NCBI GenBank assembly: GCA_945865415.1
Contig: CAMBFY010000004.1
Location: 1 to 32,573, forward strand
Reading direction: 5' to 3'
Length of the DNA: 32,573 nucleotides
DNA from: Sphingobacterium thalpophilum
Lineage (GTDB): Bacteria; Bacteroidota; Bacteroidia; Sphingobacteriales; Sphingobacteriaceae
Part shown: positions 462 to 31,978 of the stretch, piece by piece
Layout: each line of letters starts with the position of its first letter
Position numbering within the stretch: position 1 is the stretch's first letter
The notes under the pieces: model-generated
Seen by the model: the letters and a program-made list of their open reading frames with translations, nothing else
Told to the model about the DNA's origin: nothing
Databases searched by the model: none
Program-made: the position numbers and the translations under genes

Positions 462-1595
462 TCAAAACTCTAACCTAGGAGCAGCATCCTTCAATATCTC
501 CTCGTTATATTCACCTAAACCACGCAGATACTTAAGTGTGACCAGAATGCTTGAATGACCTAATAGGCTTTTTAACAAGTTCACATCTTTACTTCGATTG
601 TAAACATTCACAGCAGCAGTGTGTCTGAAAGAATAAACAGTATGATTCTTCTGAACTATTCCTAGCTTGAACATTTTCTTCCAGCATCTAGTCCAGGCAG
701 TATTAAAATATGCCTCATTGTAAGCATTAACATTCTTTGAAAAAATATTATCAGTAGCTTTTAAAGAGGGTAGAAGTAGTACTAATTCATTCCTGACATA
801 ATCAGGAACATAAACAACTCTAACCTTCTTTCCTTTATTTTCACTTCCAGATAGATGAATTTCAGTGATGTTTTTCTTGAAGTGACCAACAGTGAGCTTT
901 CTCACTTCCTTATGTGGCCTCAGGAAGCATCCGTAAGTAATTAAACAGCATAAGTATAGATGTTGGTGATGTGCCTTTAAATAAGCTAAAACAGCCTTTA
1001 ATTGCTCTGGTTCGTAAATCTTATGGAGTTTACTTTTCGTTTTCCTAGTGCTGGTATTTTTAACTAAGGGTAGAGGCTGTTGAAGAAGCTTGCTGACTGC
1101 TGAAAACATTACGCTCAAATCCCTACGTTTATTCATGTAGTAAGTGCCTGAAGAATTATATTTGCTTAAAAACGCCTCAATTCTAGATACTTTTAATTGA
1201 TGCACTTCTGCTTGCTTTTCAGCAGGTGTTAAAAAGTTCATTAAATCACTATGAATATACTTTAGGTTTCGTTTATACTCTAAACTGATATCAGTGTCCA
1301 GTTTATTATTCAGTGCAATGGTAAAGATCTCTTCAGTCATGTAGCTTCTCTCGACATGCTGAGGTATATCTAGTTCTAGTTTGAATGTGTTATTCCTTAA
1401 AGCAGTTTTTAATTCAAACAATAACTCATTAAGTGATTTACTTCGATCATTTAGGTTAATAGCCCTATTAGGGTGAATATCCTTGTCCAATAAATTACCA
1501 TTGTAAATACGTACTCTTTTACCATTTAAATAAAATAGAATATAGGTTCTCTTTTTTAAATCTTCAGAACTAAAGATTTTGGGTTCAGTATACAT
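462..1595 (-). CDS. tyrosine-type site-specific recombinase/integrase
   Basis: C-terminal catalytic motifs: YGCFLRPHKEVRKL, SFRHTAAVNVYNRSKDVNLLKSLLGHSSILVTLKYLRG (RH..., LLGHSS, catalytic Tyr); starts ~55 bp from a tRNA sequence. Confidence 0.93.
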   Translation of the reverse strand: MYTEPKIFSSEDLKKRTYILFYLNGKRVRIYNGNLLDKDIHPNRAINLNDRSKSLNELLFELKTALRNNTFKLELDIPQHVERSYMTEEIFTIALNNKLDTDISLEYKRNLKYIHSDLMNFLTPAEKQAEVHQLKVSRIEAFLSKYNSSGTYYMNKRRDLSVMFSAVSKLLQQPLPLVKNTSTRKTKSKLHKIYEPEQLKAVLAYLKAHHQHLYLCCLITYGCFLRPHKEVRKLTVGHFKKNITEIHLSGSENKGKKVRVVYVPDYVRNELVLLLPSLKATDNIFSKNVNAYNEAYFNTAWTRCWKKMFKLGIVQKNHTVYSFRHTAAVNVYNRSKDVNLLKSLLGHSSILVTLKYLRGLGEYNEEILKDAAPRLEF

Positions 1596-1648
1596 CGAAT
1601 TGACTCATTTACTGACTCACTTCGAGGGGATTGGGTTAAAATCTGGGT

Positions 1649-1722
1649 TTAATCATAGCTCAGTTGGTTAGAGTAGAAGACTCATAATCTTTTGGTCCCT
1701 GGTTCGAGCCCAGGTGGGCGCA
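1649..1722 (+). tRNA. tRNA(CAT)-like sequence with non-pairing 5' acceptor arm (probable attachment-site remnant)
   Basis: D arm gctc/gagt, anticodon stem gaaga/tcttt with loop CTCATAA, T arm cctgg-ttcgagc-ccagg, 3' acceptor tgggcgc plus A; the 5' 7 nt are ttaatca instead of the expected ~gcgccca. Confidence 0.75.
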
Positions 1723-1723
1723 C

Positions 1724-1758
1724 GAAAAAAAGCAAACTCACGTTTGCTTTTTTTATGC
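1724..1758 (+). terminator. Rho-independent-type terminator after tRNA sequence
   Basis: aaaaaaagcaaac-tca-c-gtttgctttttttat hairpin with A/T tracts. Confidence 0.75.
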
Positions 1759-1945
1759 CCACTTGGGTGAGCATAATTGCCTTAGCTTTCGAATATCAAA
1801 TAATGCTACGCCAGAGCATTTTAGGATTAATCAAAAGGGTGTTTTTTATTCTTTCTGATTCTGAACGCTATTTAAATTAACAATTTTATAATCATTAAGA
1901 CACATAATTTTAACCGGAGCAAAATAATTTTATGGAAAAAACTTT

Positions 1946-3478
1946 ATGAAAAGAGTCCTACTCTCAATTTTAATTATCTCTGCTTTTTTAGGCTGTAAAA
2001 AGAATACTTCCGAAGAACCTGAATTTTTTGTTAACGAAGATCCAGCAACATTTTCTGAGGTTGGATCAATCGATATCGGCCAAACAGGTGCAGCCGAAAT
2101 TTCAGCATATGACCCTGAAACGAATAAATTATTTGTCGTAAGAAATGAAGGTGAAGGCACCGCCAATCCAATTAATCGGATAGAAATTCTTGACCTTAAG
2201 GATCCGGCTTCTATTAAGGTTATCGGAAATATCAACATCGCTCCTTTTGGAGGAGGTGTAAATAGCGTGTCTGTTTCTGGCGGAAAATTAGCAGCAGCTA
2301 TTCAAGCTACAGATAAAACTGCCAATGGTAAGGTTGGTGTTTTTAAAACTTCTGATAACAGTAAGATCGCTGAGATTAATGTTGGGGCATTGCCTGATAT
2401 GGTCACGTTTTCTCCCGACGGAAAATTCATACTTACCGCTAACGAAGGCGAGCCGAATGACACTTATACCAATGATCCATCAGGATCGGTTTCCATTATT
2501 TCTGTCAATGATAATTATGCCGTTACAACCATTGATTTTTCTTCTATGGCTTCGCAGGAATCGGCTTTAAAATTGAAAGGATTGCGAATTTTTGGTCCGT
2601 CCAAAAGTTTTGTAAAAGATATCGAGCCAGAATATATCACAGTTTCTGCCGATTCAAAGACGGCATGGGTCACACTGCAGGAAAATAATGGGATCGCCAA
2701 AATCGATATTGCTACAAAAAGTATCACAAACATCTTCCCTTTAGGGTTTAAGGATTATAATGTTGATGGAAACGAGATCGACCCAACCGACACTGATGCT
2801 TCATACAAGGCTGCAAAATGGAACGTAAAGGGTGTTTACATGCCCGATGCGATTGCTGTTATTGAAAGTAACAATATTCCCTACTTGTTTACTGCAAATG
2901 AGGGTGATGCACGTGAATATGCTGGTTACAGCGAAATACTTCGGATAAAGAGTAATAGCGTAATTCTTGACGCAGCAAAATTCCCTACGGCTACTACTCT
3001 TAAACAAGATCTCAACCTTGGAAGGCTTAACATCACCACTGCACTTGGGGATACTGACGGAGACGGAGATTTTGATGAGCTGTACTCCTATGGATCGCGC
3101 TCTTTCAGCGTATGGAACGGTCTGGATGGCTCACAAGTGTTTGATAGCAAAAATGAGCTCGATATTAAAGCTCAATCAATTGGCGTTTATGATGATGCCA
3201 GAAGTGATGATAAAAGTGTAGAACCTGAAGGGATTGCAATAGGCACCGTTGGTAGCAAAAAAGTTGTATTTGTTGCTATGGAGCGGGTTGATGCAGTTGC
3301 GATATATGACATTACTTCGCCTTCTAAGCCAGTATTCTTAAAAATTATTAAATGCGGCGATGCTCCTGAGGGTGTACTTTTTGTCCCTGCTAAAGATAGC
3401 CCAACCAAAAGAAGCCTTTTAATTGTCAGCAGTGAAGGCGACGGCGTAGTTAAAGTGTTTAGTCCGAATACCATTTAA
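1946..3478 (+). CDS. choice-of-anchor I family lipoprotein (beta-propeller, alkaline-phosphatase-associated type)
   Basis: Lipobox-like LIISAFLGCKK; repeated propeller motifs including MVTFSPDGKFILTANEGEPND and EPEGIAIGTVGSKKVVFVAMER. Confidence 0.8.
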   Translation: MKRVLLSILIISAFLGCKKNTSEEPEFFVNEDPATFSEVGSIDIGQTGAAEISAYDPETNKLFVVRNEGEGTANPINRIEILDLKDPASIKVIGNINIAPFGGGVNSVSVSGGKLAAAIQATDKTANGKVGVFKTSDNSKIAEINVGALPDMVTFSPDGKFILTANEGEPNDTYTNDPSGSVSIISVNDNYAVTTIDFSSMASQESALKLKGLRIFGPSKSFVKDIEPEYITVSADSKTAWVTLQENNGIAKIDIATKSITNIFPLGFKDYNVDGNEIDPTDTDASYKAAKWNVKGVYMPDAIAVIESNNIPYLFTANEGDAREYAGYSEILRIKSNSVILDAAKFPTATTLKQDLNLGRLNITTALGDTDGDGDFDELYSYGSRSFSVWNGLDGSQVFDSKNELDIKAQSIGVYDDARSDDKSVEPEGIAIGTVGSKKVVFVAMERVDAVAIYDITSPSKPVFLKIIKCGDAPEGVLFVPAKDSPTKRSLLIVSSEGDGVVKVFSPNTI

Positions 3479-21120: not shown

Positions 21121-22485
21121 CTATCCCGACATGCTAAACAACTGTGTTTCCGGCTGACTGGCCCAAAGGTGAGTATCAAATGCCATACAAATATTTCTAA
21201 GGAATCGTTTACCCAATGGCGTTACTGTTACACTATTATCCCTGATGATGAGCAATCCATCATGCCGAAGTGTTTTAGCACGTTCCAAACCTGATATCAT
21301 TGCGGCAATCAAGGGCTTGCTAATATCCCAATCTGTTCGACCCCTACACATCAGATCTAAGATATGTTTACGGATAATTAGATCTTCATGCGTTAATTGG
21401 TGTCCTTTGAATACAGGCAACTTGCCATTATTCACCAGTTTAGTATAATCTTCTACCTTTTTAACATTTTGGGCAAAAGCAAACCAACTATCACTTATTG
21501 ATGAAACCCCAAGGCCTATCATCAATTGAGTATATTGGTGAGTATAACCCATGAAATTACGGTGCAACTCTCCTGAGTGTTCCGCTTTACTAAGACTATC
21601 GGAACTCAAGGAGAAGTGATCCATTCCAATCTCTTCATAACCCATTGAAGTAAACATCTGGCGGCCTAACTCATATAATTTCTGTTTTTCAATCACAGAA
21701 GGCAGATCTGCTTCAGTAAAACTCCTCTGACCCGGTTTTATCCAGGGCACATGTGCATAACTGTAAAATGCAATCCTATCGGGCATTAGCTTCTCAACCT
21801 GAAATATAGTATCTCCAAGTCCTTCATAAGTTTGAAGCGGCAATCCATAGATCAGATCAAAATTGACAGAAGTGTACCCAATCATTCTTGCCAGTTCAGT
21901 TACAGTTTTTACCTGTTCAAAGCTTTGCATTCGGTTGATAATCCGCTGCACTTTAAAATCAAAATCCTGAATACCAAGGCTGAGTCTTCTAAATCCCAAA
22001 TCATATAAGGTTCTAAGATGATCTTCTGTGGTATTTTTAGGATGAGCTTCAAAACTAAACTCGGCATCAGGGTGTAAATCTGCATCAGCAGTCAGACCAT
22101 TAATCAGAGTTTTCAGGTTCTTTACAGCAAAAAAAGTTGGTGTACCTCCGCCCAAATGGATTTCTCTGATCTTCGGCTTATCAGCAAAAACTTCCCTGTA
22201 CAAGGCCCATTCTTTCAAAACCGTTTGAATATAAGGATGTTCTACCAGATGATTACGGGTAATTCGTGTATTACATCCACAATAAGTACAAAGGCTTTCA
22301 CAAAATGGCAAGTGTACATATAGGCTGATTCCATTATCCGAGTTACTTTGGTCAAAAGAAAATTTAACAGATTCTGTCCATTTATTGAGATCCGGCATTT
22401 CAGGATTCCAGTAAGGAACTGTTGGATAGCTGGTATAACGAGGAGCTGGTACGTGATATTTACTTATTAAATCAGGGGTATTCAT
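21121..22485 (-). CDS. hemN: oxygen-independent coproporphyrinogen III oxidase
   Basis: Radical SAM motif CESLCTYCGCNT, APRYTSYPTVPYW, EIHLGGGTPTF; start trimmed from 22533 to MNTPDL. Confidence 0.93.
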   Translation of the reverse strand: MNTPDLISKYHVPAPRYTSYPTVPYWNPEMPDLNKWTESVKFSFDQSNSDNGISLYVHLPFCESLCTYCGCNTRITRNHLVEHPYIQTVLKEWALYREVFADKPKIREIHLGGGTPTFFAVKNLKTLINGLTADADLHPDAEFSFEAHPKNTTEDHLRTLYDLGFRRLSLGIQDFDFKVQRIINRMQSFEQVKTVTELARMIGYTSVNFDLIYGLPLQTYEGLGDTIFQVEKLMPDRIAFYSYAHVPWIKPGQRSFTEADLPSVIEKQKLYELGRQMFTSMGYEEIGMDHFSLSSDSLSKAEHSGELHRNFMGYTHQYTQLMIGLGVSSISDSWFAFAQNVKKVEDYTKLVNNGKLPVFKGHQLTHEDLIIRKHILDLMCRGRTDWDISKPLIAAMISGLERAKTLRHDGLLIIRDNSVTVTPLGKRFLRNICMAFDTHLWASQPETQLFSMSG

Positions 22486-22507
22486 ATTTGGTTTTTGAAT
22501 CAAATAT

Positions 22508-23512
22508 TTAGCGCTTTGAGCATCCATCAGCACATATACAAGCTTTTCCTGAACATTTTCCGGCTTGCCAGTTATCCAAATTCCTGATTACCAAATTTGC
22601 AATTTCCTGAAGTGATTCTTTAGTGAGGAATGCCTGATGAGGTGAAATAATTACATTTGGGAATGACAAAAGTTCTGCCATGATCGGATCCTTGACAAGA
22701 TCATGGCGATGGTCAGAATAAAACATATCCTTTTCAAATTCATATCCATCCAAACCGAGCCAGCCAATCTGCCCACTATGCAATGCCCTGAGTAAATCAG
22801 CAGATTTGATCAATCCACCTCTGCTGGTATTAATAAGCATCACTTCGGTCTTCATTTTAGAAATACTTTGCCTATTAATAATATGTTTTGTGACGGAAGT
22901 AAGCGGGATATGCAGAGATATTATATCCGATTCTTCTAATAGCTTGCCGAAGCTAACTTGCTCTATACCATCAAGGTTAGGATATTCAATAATATCATGT
23001 CCAAGAATCTTACAGCCCAGGCTGCTGAAGACTGAGGCTGTAGCTTTTCCAATTGCACCGAGGCCAACAATTCCAACGGTTTTCCCTCTGAAATTGAATC
23101 CAATATGCTGATCAATTCTAAAATCAAACTCCTTACTGCTGTTAGCCGTAGGGATAATTCTCCTGCCTAAAGAAAGTGCAAGCATGAGAGCGTATTCAGA
23201 AACTGCTGCAGGGGAATAAGAAGGTACATTCGCCAACTTGATATTCCTTCTTCCGGCTGCTAAGCGGTCTATGTGATCCGTTGAAACCGACCGGGTGGTA
23301 ATGTACTTAATTCCAAAATCGGCTAGTTTTTCAATTACTTCCTCCGTGAGATAGTCCTGGCTAGATACAACTACGGCTTCTTTACCTTGTGCATATAAAG
23401 CAGTTTCAAGATTTAACGTATTAGAAATTAATGTAATATCATGCTGTTTGTGATTTGCACGGGCTACAAATTCCTTTTCAAACTCTCTGACACTATAGGC
23501 AACAACTTTCAT
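22508..23512 (-). CDS. D-lactate dehydrogenase-like 2-hydroxyacid dehydrogenase
   Basis: VGIVGLGAIGKATASVFSSLGCKILGHD NAD site; RSVSTDHID, NTSRGGLI, ISPHQAFLT. Confidence 0.9.
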   Translation of the reverse strand: MKVVAYSVREFEKEFVARANHKQHDITLISNTLNLETALYAQGKEAVVVSSQDYLTEEVIEKLADFGIKYITTRSVSTDHIDRLAAGRRNIKLANVPSYSPAAVSEYALMLALSLGRRIIPTANSSKEFDFRIDQHIGFNFRGKTVGIVGLGAIGKATASVFSSLGCKILGHDIIEYPNLDGIEQVSFGKLLEESDIISLHIPLTSVTKHIINRQSISKMKTEVMLINTSRGGLIKSADLLRALHSGQIGWLGLDGYEFEKDMFYSDHRHDLVKDPIMAELLSFPNVIISPHQAFLTKESLQEIANLVIRNLDNWQAGKCSGKACICADGCSKR

Positions 23513-23529
23513 TCATTAAACATTTATTC

Positions 23530-23537
23530 CAAAAGTA
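23530..23537 (-). promoter_or_regulatory. putative Bacteroidota -7 element (TAnnTTTG) upstream of ldh-hemN
   Basis: Minus-strand TACTTTTG, 18 bp upstream of the ldh ATG. Confidence 0.45.
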
Positions 23538-23581
23538 CCTTTAGGAATAAAGTTCTGTAATGAGTGATGTCATAAAGAAAA

Positions 23582-23595
23582 ATGATCTTTATCAA
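23582..23595 (-). promoter_or_regulatory. FNR-box-like palindrome upstream of ldh-hemN
   Basis: Minus strand TTGATAAAGATCAT versus TTGATnnnnATCAA (9/10 consensus positions); overlaps the stop of the upstream regulator gene. Confidence 0.5.
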
Positions 23596-24653
23596 TTTTT
23601 CATTTTATGCAGCTTGGTAAAATCAACAATATCAATCACACTTCCCTTCTTTTCGATGATTCCTTCGTCCTTGAAATCGCTTAATGTCCGGCTAACTGTT
23701 TCGGTGGCCATACCTGCCATTGATGCTAAATCCTCCCTGGAAATTCTGATCTGAACCTCCGAGCTTTCGGAAGCATTTTGTTGCTTTGCCAGACGAATCA
23801 GAACCTCTGCCATGCGTTTCCTCACAGAGTGATAAGCCAACTGAAGTAATTGCTCCTCCTTTTCTATCAGGTTACTGGATAATAGTCCAATAAACTTCTG
23901 ACCAATATCTGTATAACTATCAAGTAACTGCTTTACAATGTCTTTAGGAAGAAGACATATCATAGTATCATCTACAGCCTCCGCTGTTTCATTGTAATGA
24001 TCACCGGAGAGCATGGCCTGTATGCCGAGGTATTCTTCAGGCCCATACATGCCGGTGACTAATTCTCTGCCATCTTCACTCATTTTAATCGCCTTTACCC
24101 TTCCGCTAAGTATGAGGTATATACCTGTCACATTATCACTTTCATAGTAAATGATTTGTTTTTTTCTTACTTGCTTAACCTTTCGGTCAGCAATAATTTT
24201 CTTCAATTCATTTAGACCCTGATTTTGATTAGTCAGCAATTGAAGACTTTCGAACGATTTACTATAAAAGGCCTCAATTTTATCCTTTTTATGAAAACGC
24301 GACTCAATGGTATTCAGTAACTCCATATCGTCGAAAGGCTTGGTTAGATAATCATCTGCACCCATTTCCATACCCTTTCTCATATCAGCCCTTTCGGCTT
24401 TTGCCGTCAGGAAAATAAAAGGAATGTTGGAAGTTTCACGATTCTTAGACAAAAGATATAAAACGCCATAACCATCCAGTTCAGGCATCATTATATCGCA
24501 AAGTATCATATCCGGTAAATGTTGCTGTGCCAATTCTACACCAATCTTACCATTATCTGCCTCCAAAACATCATAACCTGCAAGTACAAGAATTTCAACA
24601 GAACTTTCCCTGATATCCTTGTTGTCTTCAATTATTAGAATCTTCTTTTTCAT
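23592..24653 (-). CDS. response regulator: receiver domain fused to CRP/FNR cNMP-binding-like and HTH_Crp domains
   Basis: REC motifs (EDN, CDIMMPELDG, FLTAKA, KPF); CAP-like GIYLILSGRVKAIKMSEDGRELV; HTH REDLASMAGMATETVSRTLSDFKDEGII. Confidence 0.93.
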   Translation of the reverse strand: MKKKILIIEDNKDIRESSVEILVLAGYDVLEADNGKIGVELAQQHLPDMILCDIMMPELDGYGVLYLLSKNRETSNIPFIFLTAKAERADMRKGMEMGADDYLTKPFDDMELLNTIESRFHKKDKIEAFYSKSFESLQLLTNQNQGLNELKKIIADRKVKQVRKKQIIYYESDNVTGIYLILSGRVKAIKMSEDGRELVTGMYGPEEYLGIQAMLSGDHYNETAEAVDDTMICLLPKDIVKQLLDSYTDIGQKFIGLLSSNLIEKEEQLLQLAYHSVRKRMAEVLIRLAKQQNASESSEVQIRISREDLASMAGMATETVSRTLSDFKDEGIIEKKGSVIDIVDFTKLHKMKN

Positions 24654-25846
24654 AGATTTTTTTGCCGGAATTTTAGGGAAAATATAGTTTTCTGATTTGG
24701 TAGACTTATAAAATTAACGTTTCCTCCCATCAAATTAACATAACGCATGATGATATTAAGACCTAAGCCTGTTCCGGGGATATTTCCAATATTATTAGCC
24801 CGAAAAAATGGCTCAAATAAATGTTTGTGATCTGTTTCAGGTATTCCTATACCATTATCACTTACGGTTACAATACACTCCTTATCAGAAAGTTCAGTAT
24901 TAAACTCGATGAATGTATTCTCGCCGGAATACTTTATGGCATTAGAAATTAGGTTGATTATACAATTTCGCAGTAAATTCTGATCCAATAGAACTTTGCT
25001 ATGCAGGCCGGTATGCTGATAAATGATATGCTGATCTTTTTTAGCCATCATTTGCATCTCCTCGGTGATTTCTTCAGATAGTTTGACAATATCGAACTCA
25101 GTAAAAGTAGTTTCAATTTTACCCGCCTCAAGTCGCTCAAGAGATAGAAAATCATCCAGAATAGTGGTTAGATTACCAACAGAATTTTTTATTTTAATTA
25201 CATGCTTTGAAATATTAGTACCATCATCCTGTAATTGATATTTTTCTATCAATGATGCAGATAATTGTATTGAACTAAGAGGCGTGCGGAATTCATGTGA
25301 GGCCATAGAAACAAACCGGCTTTTTAGCTGATTCAGTTCTTTTTCCTTTTCAAGAGATTTGCTGACAATTTCTTTCGCTACCTGAAGTTCTGTAACAGAC
25401 TTCTGCAAAGAATTTGTACGATCCTCTACCAGCTTTTCAAGTTGTGAAGCATAATGTAATATTTGAGCCTCTGCATTTTTTTCCCTGCTTAAATCATGGA
25501 TAAAGCCTGTATAGATTATCCTTCCAGAGTAATTAACTTCACTAACTGCAAGTCGGAATGGAAATAAGGTACCATTCTTCTTCAATCCCTGAACATCCCG
25601 CCCTTGACCGATAACATGAGGGGAAGCTGTCCTTTGATAACGGGCGAGGTATTCATCATGCTGACCCTTATCCGGCTGAGGCATTAACATTGAAATATTT
25701 TGACCAGTGACTTCTTTAGCTGAATATCCAAACAAAGCACAGGCCGAAGGGTTTATCGACTCAATTAAGCCCCGTTGATCAATCGTTATGATTCCATCAA
25801 TAGCATTTTCAATAATTGCATGTAACAATGCGCCTTTATCAGTCAT
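24650..25846 (-). CDS. soluble FixL-like PAS sensor histidine kinase
   Basis: PAS segment MPQPDKGQHDEYLARYQRTASPHVIGQGRDVQG resembles the FixL heme-PAS; H-box SHEFRTPLSS; N, G boxes; no TM segment; 4-nt ATGA overlap with the next gene. Confidence 0.92.
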   Translation of the reverse strand: MTDKGALLHAIIENAIDGIITIDQRGLIESINPSACALFGYSAKEVTGQNISMLMPQPDKGQHDEYLARYQRTASPHVIGQGRDVQGLKKNGTLFPFRLAVSEVNYSGRIIYTGFIHDLSREKNAEAQILHYASQLEKLVEDRTNSLQKSVTELQVAKEIVSKSLEKEKELNQLKSRFVSMASHEFRTPLSSIQLSASLIEKYQLQDDGTNISKHVIKIKNSVGNLTTILDDFLSLERLEAGKIETTFTEFDIVKLSEEITEEMQMMAKKDQHIIYQHTGLHSKVLLDQNLLRNCIINLISNAIKYSGENTFIEFNTELSDKECIVTVSDNGIGIPETDHKHLFEPFFRANNIGNIPGTGLGLNIIMRYVNLMGGNVNFISLPNQKTIFSLKFRQKNL

Positions 25847-30190: not shown

Positions 30191-31978
30191 ATGAGTCATA
30201 CATTTCATATTCCTGTTTTAGGGCTTGCCTATTCAGTAGACACCCCAATCAAAGTAGCCCGTTATGGTATCAGCTCGGTTGTGTCAATTGTTGATGATAT
30301 ATTAATTGAACGTATGCGGCAATTATACAGTCAAAAAAACAATGAGGAATTTATTGCTATTGATCCCAAAGAAACTGATTTCCGCAGTAAAAGAATTAAA
30401 GCTTATCTTAATTTGGTTAAAAAAATTGTCGACAATCAGTTTGAATCACTACGTCTCCAGTCATTTGAAGATGGAACTGATTTGACAAGATATTTCAGTC
30501 TTTTGCCTGAAAGCTCTCCACTCAAGATTAAATACCAGCAAATGCTAAACGAGCAGGATGCTGAAAAGTGTTTTAGCCTGCAAAGTGAGTTACGTAGTGA
30601 AATTGAGAAAGGAGAAATCCAGGTTAATATCATGGCCAAGGTCGACCGAATGAACCCAAATACCAGCGGTGAGCAGATTTCGGATGCATTATCAGCACTT
30701 AAGGGATTTGCTGAGAGTGAATTAAATACTCCAGTAGTCCTTTCAGCAGGAATGAACCCACGACTGTACAGTTATCTGGAAAATTTTGCAGAATTTTTAC
30801 CTGATCAGTTTAGCAATTTCAGAAAAAGTATCATTCTTAAGGTAAGTGATTTCAGGTCGGCATTGATACAGGCCAAATTTTTAGCTAAAAAAGGGCTTTG
30901 GGTTTCAGAATTCAGAGTTGAATCCGGACTGAATTGTGGTGGTCATGCGTTTGCGACTGAAGGATATCTTTTGGGACCGATTTTGGAAGAATTCAAAACC
31001 AAGAGGCAGGAGATGATTGAAGAACTGTATCAGATTTATAGTAAAGCAATAGAAGAAAAAGGTATTCAGCTTTCTACTGTTCCTAAATTAAAGATCAGTG
31101 TTCAGGGAGGGATTGGAACTTCAGATGAAAACAATTTTCTGATTAATCATTATCAGCTTGACGCAACCGGTTGGGGAAGTCCCTTTTTATTGGTGCCTGA
31201 AGCAACAAATGTGGATGCCGAAACACTTGAACTACTTGCAAGCGCCAGCCATGATGATTTTTATATCAGCGGTTCTTCTCCACTGGGAATACCTTTCAAT
31301 AATTTCAGAAAGAGCACAGCCGAGAAACAACGTTTGGAACGCATTGCAAAAGGAAGACCGGGCAGCCCCTGTGTTAAAAAATTCTTATCCTCAAATACCG
31401 AATTTACTGAACTACCGATCTGCACCGCATCCAGAGAATATCAGAATCTTAAAATAAAACAACTTGAATCAGAGGGCTTAGCAGCGGATGAATTCCAGAC
31501 AAAATTCGAGGAGATCACTGAGAAGCTATGCTTGTGCGAAGGACTTGCTGCATCGGCATACTTAAAAAATAATATTCTTAAACCCAAAGAGAGTCGGGTC
31601 ACAGTGATCTGTCCTGGCCCCAATATTGCCTATTTCAGCGGCAAATTTTCATTGGATGAGATGGTCAGCCATATTTATGGTAAGCTCAACTTGTTGAATG
31701 ACCCCAATCGACCTAATCTCTTTGTCAATGAACTCAATCTTTATGTAGAATACCTTAAAAAGGAAATCAGCAAACAGATTCAGGAAATGAATGATAAAAA
31801 AGCCAAGTATATTATCAAATTTAAAGAGCAGCTGGAAAACGGAATAGAATATTACAAAAAACTGATTCCCCAAATTAAAGACCAGACTGAGGTTTACAGA
31901 AAGAAGATGATGAATGAACTACTGGAATTAGAAGAAAAATTACAGCATTTAAAACCTGTTGTTGAGCAGAAGGTCTAA
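30191..31978 (+). CDS. conserved uncharacterised protein (595 aa), possible TIM-barrel/flavoprotein-like core plus C-terminal coiled coil
   Basis: Long intact ORF with its own terminator; FHIPVLGLAYSVDTPIKVARYGISSVVSIVDD; VQGGIGTSDE; Cys motifs SPCVKKF, PICTASREY, CLCEGLAAS, ICPGPN. Confidence 0.8.
   Translation: MSHTFHIPVLGLAYSVDTPIKVARYGISSVVSIVDDILIERMRQLYSQKNNEEFIAIDPKETDFRSKRIKAYLNLVKKIVDNQFESLRLQSFEDGTDLTRYFSLLPESSPLKIKYQQMLNEQDAEKCFSLQSELRSEIEKGEIQVNIMAKVDRMNPNTSGEQISDALSALKGFAESELNTPVVLSAGMNPRLYSYLENFAEFLPDQFSNFRKSIILKVSDFRSALIQAKFLAKKGLWVSEFRVESGLNCGGHAFATEGYLLGPILEEFKTKRQEMIEELYQIYSKAIEEKGIQLSTVPKLKISVQGGIGTSDENNFLINHYQLDATGWGSPFLLVPEATNVDAETLELLASASHDDFYISGSSPLGIPFNNFRKSTAEKQRLERIAKGRPGSPCVKKFLSSNTEFTELPICTASREYQNLKIKQLESEGLAADEFQTKFEEITEKLCLCEGLAASAYLKNNILKPKESRVTVICPGPNIAYFSGKFSLDEMVSHIYGKLNLLNDPNRPNLFVNELNLYVEYLKKEISKQIQEMNDKKAKYIIKFKEQLENGIEYYKKLIPQIKDQTEVYRKKMMNELLELEEKLQHLKPVVEQKV

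Follow-up and report, generated by a model that had tools for sequence, protein, structure and literature searches.

The two overlapping genes on the minus strand at 23592–25846 of the window (the whole stretch of 32,573 nucleotides that was analysed) most likely encode a cytoplasmic oxygen-sensing two-component system, in which a heme-PAS kinase passes phosphate to a receiver–FNR protein that induces the neighbouring ldh-hemN genes at low oxygen; the probability of this reading is estimated at about three in four. It is carried by the domain make-up of both proteins, the conserved pocket and phosphorylation residues, the pairing of the genes, and the rigid tandem-site architecture of the ldh-hemN promoter, which is a new finding of this analysis. 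Little is understood about oxygen control in the aerobic and facultative Bacteroidota, and the system, if true, would be a compact switch with phosphorylation in place of the FNR iron-sulfur cluster.

The steps that we infer are heme and O2 binding, the sign of the response, phosphotransfer, and occupancy of the sites by the regulator. The kinase PAS would bind heme via His63, and the O2-bound kinase would be off or would work as a phosphatase. A drop in O2 would leave the kinase in its deoxy form, which would autophosphorylate at His184 and hand the phosphate on to the regulator's Asp53. This phosphorylation, not an iron-sulfur cluster or cAMP, would turn on the FNR-type DNA-binding module, and the phospho-regulator on tandem TGA-N6-TCA sites would then activate ldh-hemN, whose output is a fermentation enzyme together with heme synthesis that needs no oxygen.

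The kinase and its FixL-type PAS domain

The source assembly is a 2.84-Mb draft (92.5% complete), and the nearest relatives of the source genome are Daejeonella of the Sphingobacteriaceae. The kinase gene (24650–25846, minus strand) and the regulator gene (23592–24653, minus strand) share an ATGA overlap of stop and start at 24650–24653, with the coordinates and frames that had been given in the first-pass annotation. The glpF and glpK genes (MIP and FGGY kinase) lie upstream of the kinase, and ldh and hemN lie downstream of the regulator, all on the same strand. The kinase is a soluble protein of 398 aa with the order PAS–coiled-coil–HisKA (His184)–HATPase_c, as assigned by Pfam and the structure model, where the PAS, HisKA, and HATPase_c matches are all far above cut-off. 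The earlier statement that it has no transmembrane segment agrees with a maximum 19-residue Kyte-Doolittle mean of 1.12.

The PAS domain with its putative heme pocket occupies residues 7–120 (25487–25828, minus strand; Pfam PAS 7–118), as defined by Pfam, the match to Bradyrhizobium japonicum FixL (BjFixL), and the model. In a PDB sequence search, kinase residues 8–129 align with BjFixL without gaps (E 4.7e-30), and the PAS domain alone, searched against all PDB sequences, finds BjFixL at 2.3e-30, S. meliloti FixL at 6e-25, and DosP at 3e-15. FixL and DosP are heme O2 sensors. All PDB PAS chains with E < 1e-9 are FixL or DosP, except one kinase PAS (10jx/10jy, 6e-10), and generic PAS domains start at 1e-4; this near-exclusive set of matches indicates that the block quoted in the first-pass annotation (residues 62–83) is not a chance motif. 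The alignment pairs His63 with His200, Arg69 with Arg206, His77 with His214, Val78 with Ile215, Arg83 with Arg220, and Leu99 with Leu236 of BjFixL, so that the earlier alignment of His200, Arg206, and Arg220 holds at all three residues. The codon of His63, the residue aligned with the heme-ligand His200 in the ungapped alignment, lies at 25658–25660 (minus strand).

A substitution of this His in close orthologs, which had been named earlier as evidence against heme binding, was not found: His63 is kept in 81 of 81 kinases, and the proximal His is also invariant across 36 diverse kinases. Arg83 is kept in 79 of 81, and the hydrophobic distal positions are nearly constant as well (Ile or Val at 78 in 77/81; Leu99 in 79/81); Arg69 is found in only 61/81 and His77 in only 49/81. 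The position of BjFixL Arg206 corresponds to R200 of S. meliloti FixL. S. meliloti FixL has its Soret band at about 418 nm in the oxy and 434 nm in the deoxy form, and its R200A, Q, E, and H variants retain near-normal heme spectra (PMC10765370); by analogy, heme may still be bound where the Arg206 position varies. The kinase model built from 36 relatives has a pLDDT of 81.8, and its PAS superposes on FixL 8js5 with an rmsd of 1.2 Å over 133 columns. At the family level the assignment as a FixL-type heme PAS is thus upheld, BjFixL being the nearest PDB PAS and the pocket residues being kept.

A second PAS type (HVxxR...RxMGxGRDL...FPVEVSLS) was found in the kinases of related REC-CRP pairs, and it has a His at the aligned place too. 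Such second-class pairs, whose kinase PAS is not of the FixL type, were observed at loci L067, L070, L111, L113, L116–L122, L124, and L125. The argument that the His alone proves heme was rejected, as the other PAS type has it as well; the heme claim rests on the whole pocket and the subfamily, because the aligned His alone is not diagnostic. The same observation favours the alternative that the PAS carries no heme, or another cofactor, and senses for example a metabolite, its likeness to FixL being shared PAS ancestry. The FixL/DosP cluster indeed includes likely non-heme members, about 40% of it being without the His (PMC10468136). In the kinases described here, however, the His is always present, nearly always together with the Arg220 equivalent, and the best PDB matches are all heme sensors, which makes this alternative very improbable.

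The likeness to FixL is a property of the PAS domain, which is closest to FixL and has the equivalents of His200 and Arg220. For the transmitter the nearest kinases are those of the HK853 type, and the FixL kinase part was matched only weakly, in chimeras, in the PDB search; the whole kinase scores 152.6 bits against the NCBIfam FixL equivalog NF041777, below its cut-off of 850.

The regulator and the conservation of the pair

The regulator of 353 aa is a REC–cNMP-fold–HTH_Crp protein with the Pfam matches Response_reg at 5–116, cNMP_binding at 160–247, and HTH_Crp_2 at 280–350, all far above cut-off. The fusion of these domains is as described in the first-pass annotation, except that the receiver is not directly joined to the CAP-like sensor, about 43 residues lying between them. 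The receiver possesses the acidic pocket, phospho-acceptor, Thr/Ser, and Lys of two-component receivers: E9, Asp53, and Lys105 are each present in 81 of 81 regulators, and position 83 is Thr or Ser in all 81. The recognition helix E318-T-V-S321-R322 is FNR-like (E318 and R322 in 81/81, S321 in 79/81), and the cNMP-fold with an HTH_Crp of the E..SR type places the protein in the CRP-FNR superfamily; its best NCBIfam match is Fnr, at 99.9 bits below the cut-off of 228.

The FNR-type [4Fe-4S] Cys ligands are absent from the regulator, which has only Cys52 (in REC) and Cys233, and the CRP-type cAMP motif (Glu72, Arg82/Ser83) is absent too, the aligned stretch being GIQAMLSGDHYNETAEA with the R/S pair that contacts cAMP in CRP replaced by E222/T223. 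With both the FNR cysteines and the cAMP R/S pair missing, no input other than phosphorylation is apparent. PleD heads the 60 best PDB matches of the receiver, PhoB/CheY-type receivers are close as well, and FixJ does not occur among these 60; the HTH is of the Crp type, where FixJ combines its receiver with a LuxR/FixJ HTH. The earlier idea that the FixJ and FixK steps are collapsed into one protein may therefore stand as a statement of function and does not stand as one of descent: with a receiver that is PleD/PhoB/CheY-like and not FixJ-like the protein is not a fusion of FixJ with FixK, and the transmitter of its kinase is not FixL-like either.

In the best 80 regulator loci on genome contigs the kinase stands immediately before the regulator in 80 of 80, the two most distant loci (L067 and L070) having a kinase with the other PAS type. 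A survey of 297 Bacteroidota genomes gave 49 matches, from which five covering the receiver only were excluded, leaving a full-length regulator in 44 genomes. Among 30 inspected REC-CRP loci a FixL-type PAS kinase was present at 12, the window's own included, and four of these (L108–L110 and L114) belong to other families of the phylum; at the remaining loci the kinase has a different PAS type or no PAS that could be detected, or the short flank holds no kinase. Thus the regulator family reaches beyond the pairs with FixL-type input, and of the conserved pairing raised in the first-pass annotation the adjacency of kinase and REC-CRP is borne out, the FixL-type input throughout is not. The pair is probably a conserved two-protein switch carried by soil and freshwater Bacteroidota.

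The ldh-hemN promoter

The first predicted target, ldh (22508–23512, minus strand), encodes a full-length D-lactate-dehydrogenase-like 2-hydroxyacid dehydrogenase with the Cys tail KCSGKACICADGC, and the second, hemN, encodes an oxygen-independent coproporphyrinogen III oxidase (TIGR00538, 429.8 bits; cut-off 325). The hemN reading frame is listed from a GTG (21121–22533, minus strand); translation probably begins instead at the ATG near 22485, since alignments with its relatives set in only at residue 17.

All promoter elements lie on the minus strand. Site 1, TGATAAAGATCA (23583–23594), is an FNR-type palindrome that includes the TGA stop codon of the regulator, site 2, TGACATCACTCA (23561–23572), lies 22 bp downstream of site 1, and TACTTTTG (23530–23537), a match to TAnnTTTG, follows at 35 bp, counted from where site 2 starts. 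If TAnnTTTG is the -7 element, as in Bacteroidota promoters, the two palindromes are placed near -41 and -63, which are classic activator positions. The predicted transcription start is about 4 nt past TACTTTTG.

Across the loci, site 1 has the consensus TGAYN4RTCA. TGA-N6-TCA was found at the stop in 59 of 60 loci with a TGA stop codon (TGATN4ATCA in 33 of these), site 2 is again TGA-N6-TCA and starts 22 bp (52 pairs) or 23 bp (7 pairs) after site 1, and in 54 the distance from the start of site 2 to that of TAnnTTTG is 35 bp. Among the 74 loci followed by ldh, both palindromes occur at the regulator stop in 56, and 51 of these have an exact TAnnTTTG as well; sequences shuffled with the TGA fixed, a control that ignores the relatedness of the loci, gave 1.5 loci for site 1 and 0.0 for both, and the central bases of the palindrome vary freely between loci. 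An explanation of site 1 as a by-product of the stop codon was rejected, since conservation extends past the TGA and some copies of the module are found clear of the stop codon. In the displaced modules (L034, L059, L065, L066, and most of L071–L080) the spacing to TAnnTTTG is kept, often with TAA for TGA, which assigns the module to the ldh-hemN promoter. Autoregulation through TGATN4ATCA before the kinase was considered as well and set aside: such sites were found at 16 of 80 loci in varying positions, and none in the window.

The module persists where ldh-hemN sits 150–900 bp away, and the sites are retained when ldh-hemN and the pair are apart, as might be expected if the pair controlled something else and the tandem sites belonged to another CRP/FNR protein; one genome that lacks REC-CRP indeed encodes a stand-alone FNR-like protein next to a site of this kind. 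Against this, the sites are absent at those of the 80 pair loci that have no adjoining ldh-hemN, and the regulator is the only CRP-family protein found in the source assembly with an FNR-like E..SR helix, the helix of the other clear member (TSRVVISR) being without Glu. Control by another protein is accordingly considered unlikely, and the tandem sites before ldh-hemN, as predicted from sequence, accord with the link of an FNR-type output to low-oxygen genes suggested in the first-pass annotation.

A DUF1275 membrane protein gene (L046:7073–7825; also L177) directly follows the regulator in L046, and in genome G313 it is found downstream of a TGATN4ATCA/TAnnTTTG promoter.

Wider distribution of the sites, related systems, and the short ldh

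In 26 Sphingobacteriaceae genomes the strict pattern TGATN4ATCA-N22-24-TAnnTTTG occurs 47 times, as compared with 3 for the reversed pattern, and the genes after strict sites include those for a pyruvate formate-lyase-like protein, a formate/nitrite transporter, a bacterial globin, a copper ATPase, cytochrome c, and PPDK. Thirteen strict sites were found in G300, the Sphingobacteriaceae genome without REC-CRP mentioned above, where the FNR-like protein is encoded at C31:308418–309100; this type of site is therefore shared beyond the fused regulator, and sites do not prove the regulator. In the source genome the relaxed pattern TGAN6TCA-N20-26-TAnnTTTG gave 17 matches (4 in the reversed control). 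A wider regulon of its own was nevertheless rejected, as the neighbours besides ldh-hemN are degP-like, purN-like, or queD-like, or the matches lie within reading frames, with no clear O2 theme. The strict site before TAnnTTTG was found in only three further places, none of them at a gene clearly tied to O2, and a search of the source assembly (92.5% complete) for cbb3 and bd oxidases turned up neither, only one COX1 of the aa3/caa3 type; a wide O2 regulon is thus not visible in this genome.

Heme-PAS domains bind several gases and ligands, and the adjacent target hemN makes heme, so the PAS might bind heme and respond to NO, CO, or the heme/redox state, for instance as heme-sufficiency feedback on hemN. 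The distal equivalents of FixL I215, R220, and L236 are kept, however, and the fermentative-type dehydrogenase partner together with the sites before pyruvate formate-lyase-like and formate-transporter genes fits O2 better, so that such a signal is distinctly unlikely.

The predicted oxygen switch resembles FixL-FixJ-FixK of rhizobia in the (here predicted) heme-PAS kinase input, the CRP/FNR-type output, and the low-oxygen targets; it differs in having no separate FixJ, the phosphorylation being proposed on the FNR-type protein itself, in the PleD/PhoB-like receiver, the HK853-like transmitter, and the soluble one-PAS kinase, in its occurrence in Bacteroidota, and in its predicted target, ldh-hemN instead of nif/fix. 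The hFixL-FxkR-FixKf system of Rhizobium etli/leguminosarum is likewise an alternative wiring from a FixL-type sensor to CRP/FNR, while its kinase is a hybrid, the fixKf gene is the target of a distinct FxkR regulator, and there is no REC-CRP fusion (PMC4999443). E. coli FNR and FnrN share with the regulator the E..SR helix and the TGAT-N4-ATCA type of site, whereas the regulator lacks their N-terminal FeS cysteines and has an N-terminal receiver in place of the O2-labile cluster. DosP (EcDOS) belongs to the same PAS cluster with the His ligand, its output being a c-di-GMP phosphodiesterase and not a histidine kinase. NmpRSTU of Myxococcus xanthus, too, is a kinase system with heme-based sensing and has a regulator that binds the promoter of hemN (PMC11841059), with the difference of a globin sensor, an NtrC-like regulator, and a multi-step phosphorelay. 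The kinase/REC-CRP pairing was not described in the open-access literature searched, which is not proof of absence. The promoter with two sites at fixed class I/class II-like positions would be a ready test bed that lets one ask how a phospho-receiver activates a CRP/FNR module, and the predicted site may be used for low-oxygen regulon mapping across many genomes.

At 52 of the 81 loci compared, ldh is without the NAD-binding domain (for example L012:7137–7595 and L071:7674–8099), about 100 N-terminal residues running straight into the C-terminal helix. The tail C-x4-C-x-C-x3-C is present in 43 of the 52 short forms and in the full-length ldh of the window; the other full-length D-LDHs with readable tails in the phylum sample are without this motif, and the short form was seen there only in genomes with the operon. 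The model of the short protein (pLDDT 86.6, pTM 0.80) superposes on the E. coli D-LDH substrate domain (1.0 Å over 99 columns), and its gene is under purifying selection (median dN/dS 0.10). On the kinase and regulator tree the short form requires five changes, at least four of them forced by well-supported branches, so several separate losses of the NAD domain are probable. Such a protein can hardly be a dehydrogenase. It is possible, if still doubtful, that the FixL-type kinase/REC-FNR pair replaces iron-sulfur FNR in part of the Bacteroidota and that its conserved direct target in many genomes is this non-enzyme NAD-less ldh, a substrate-domain protein of 130–160 aa with a Cys tail beside hemN, perhaps serving in metal, Fe-S, or heme handling or sensing in low-oxygen heme synthesis.

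Elsewhere in the window, a 595-aa protein with no Pfam match is encoded at 30191–31978; L008 has a clear homolog close to the pair (1383–3173), so the neighbourhood is partly syntenic.
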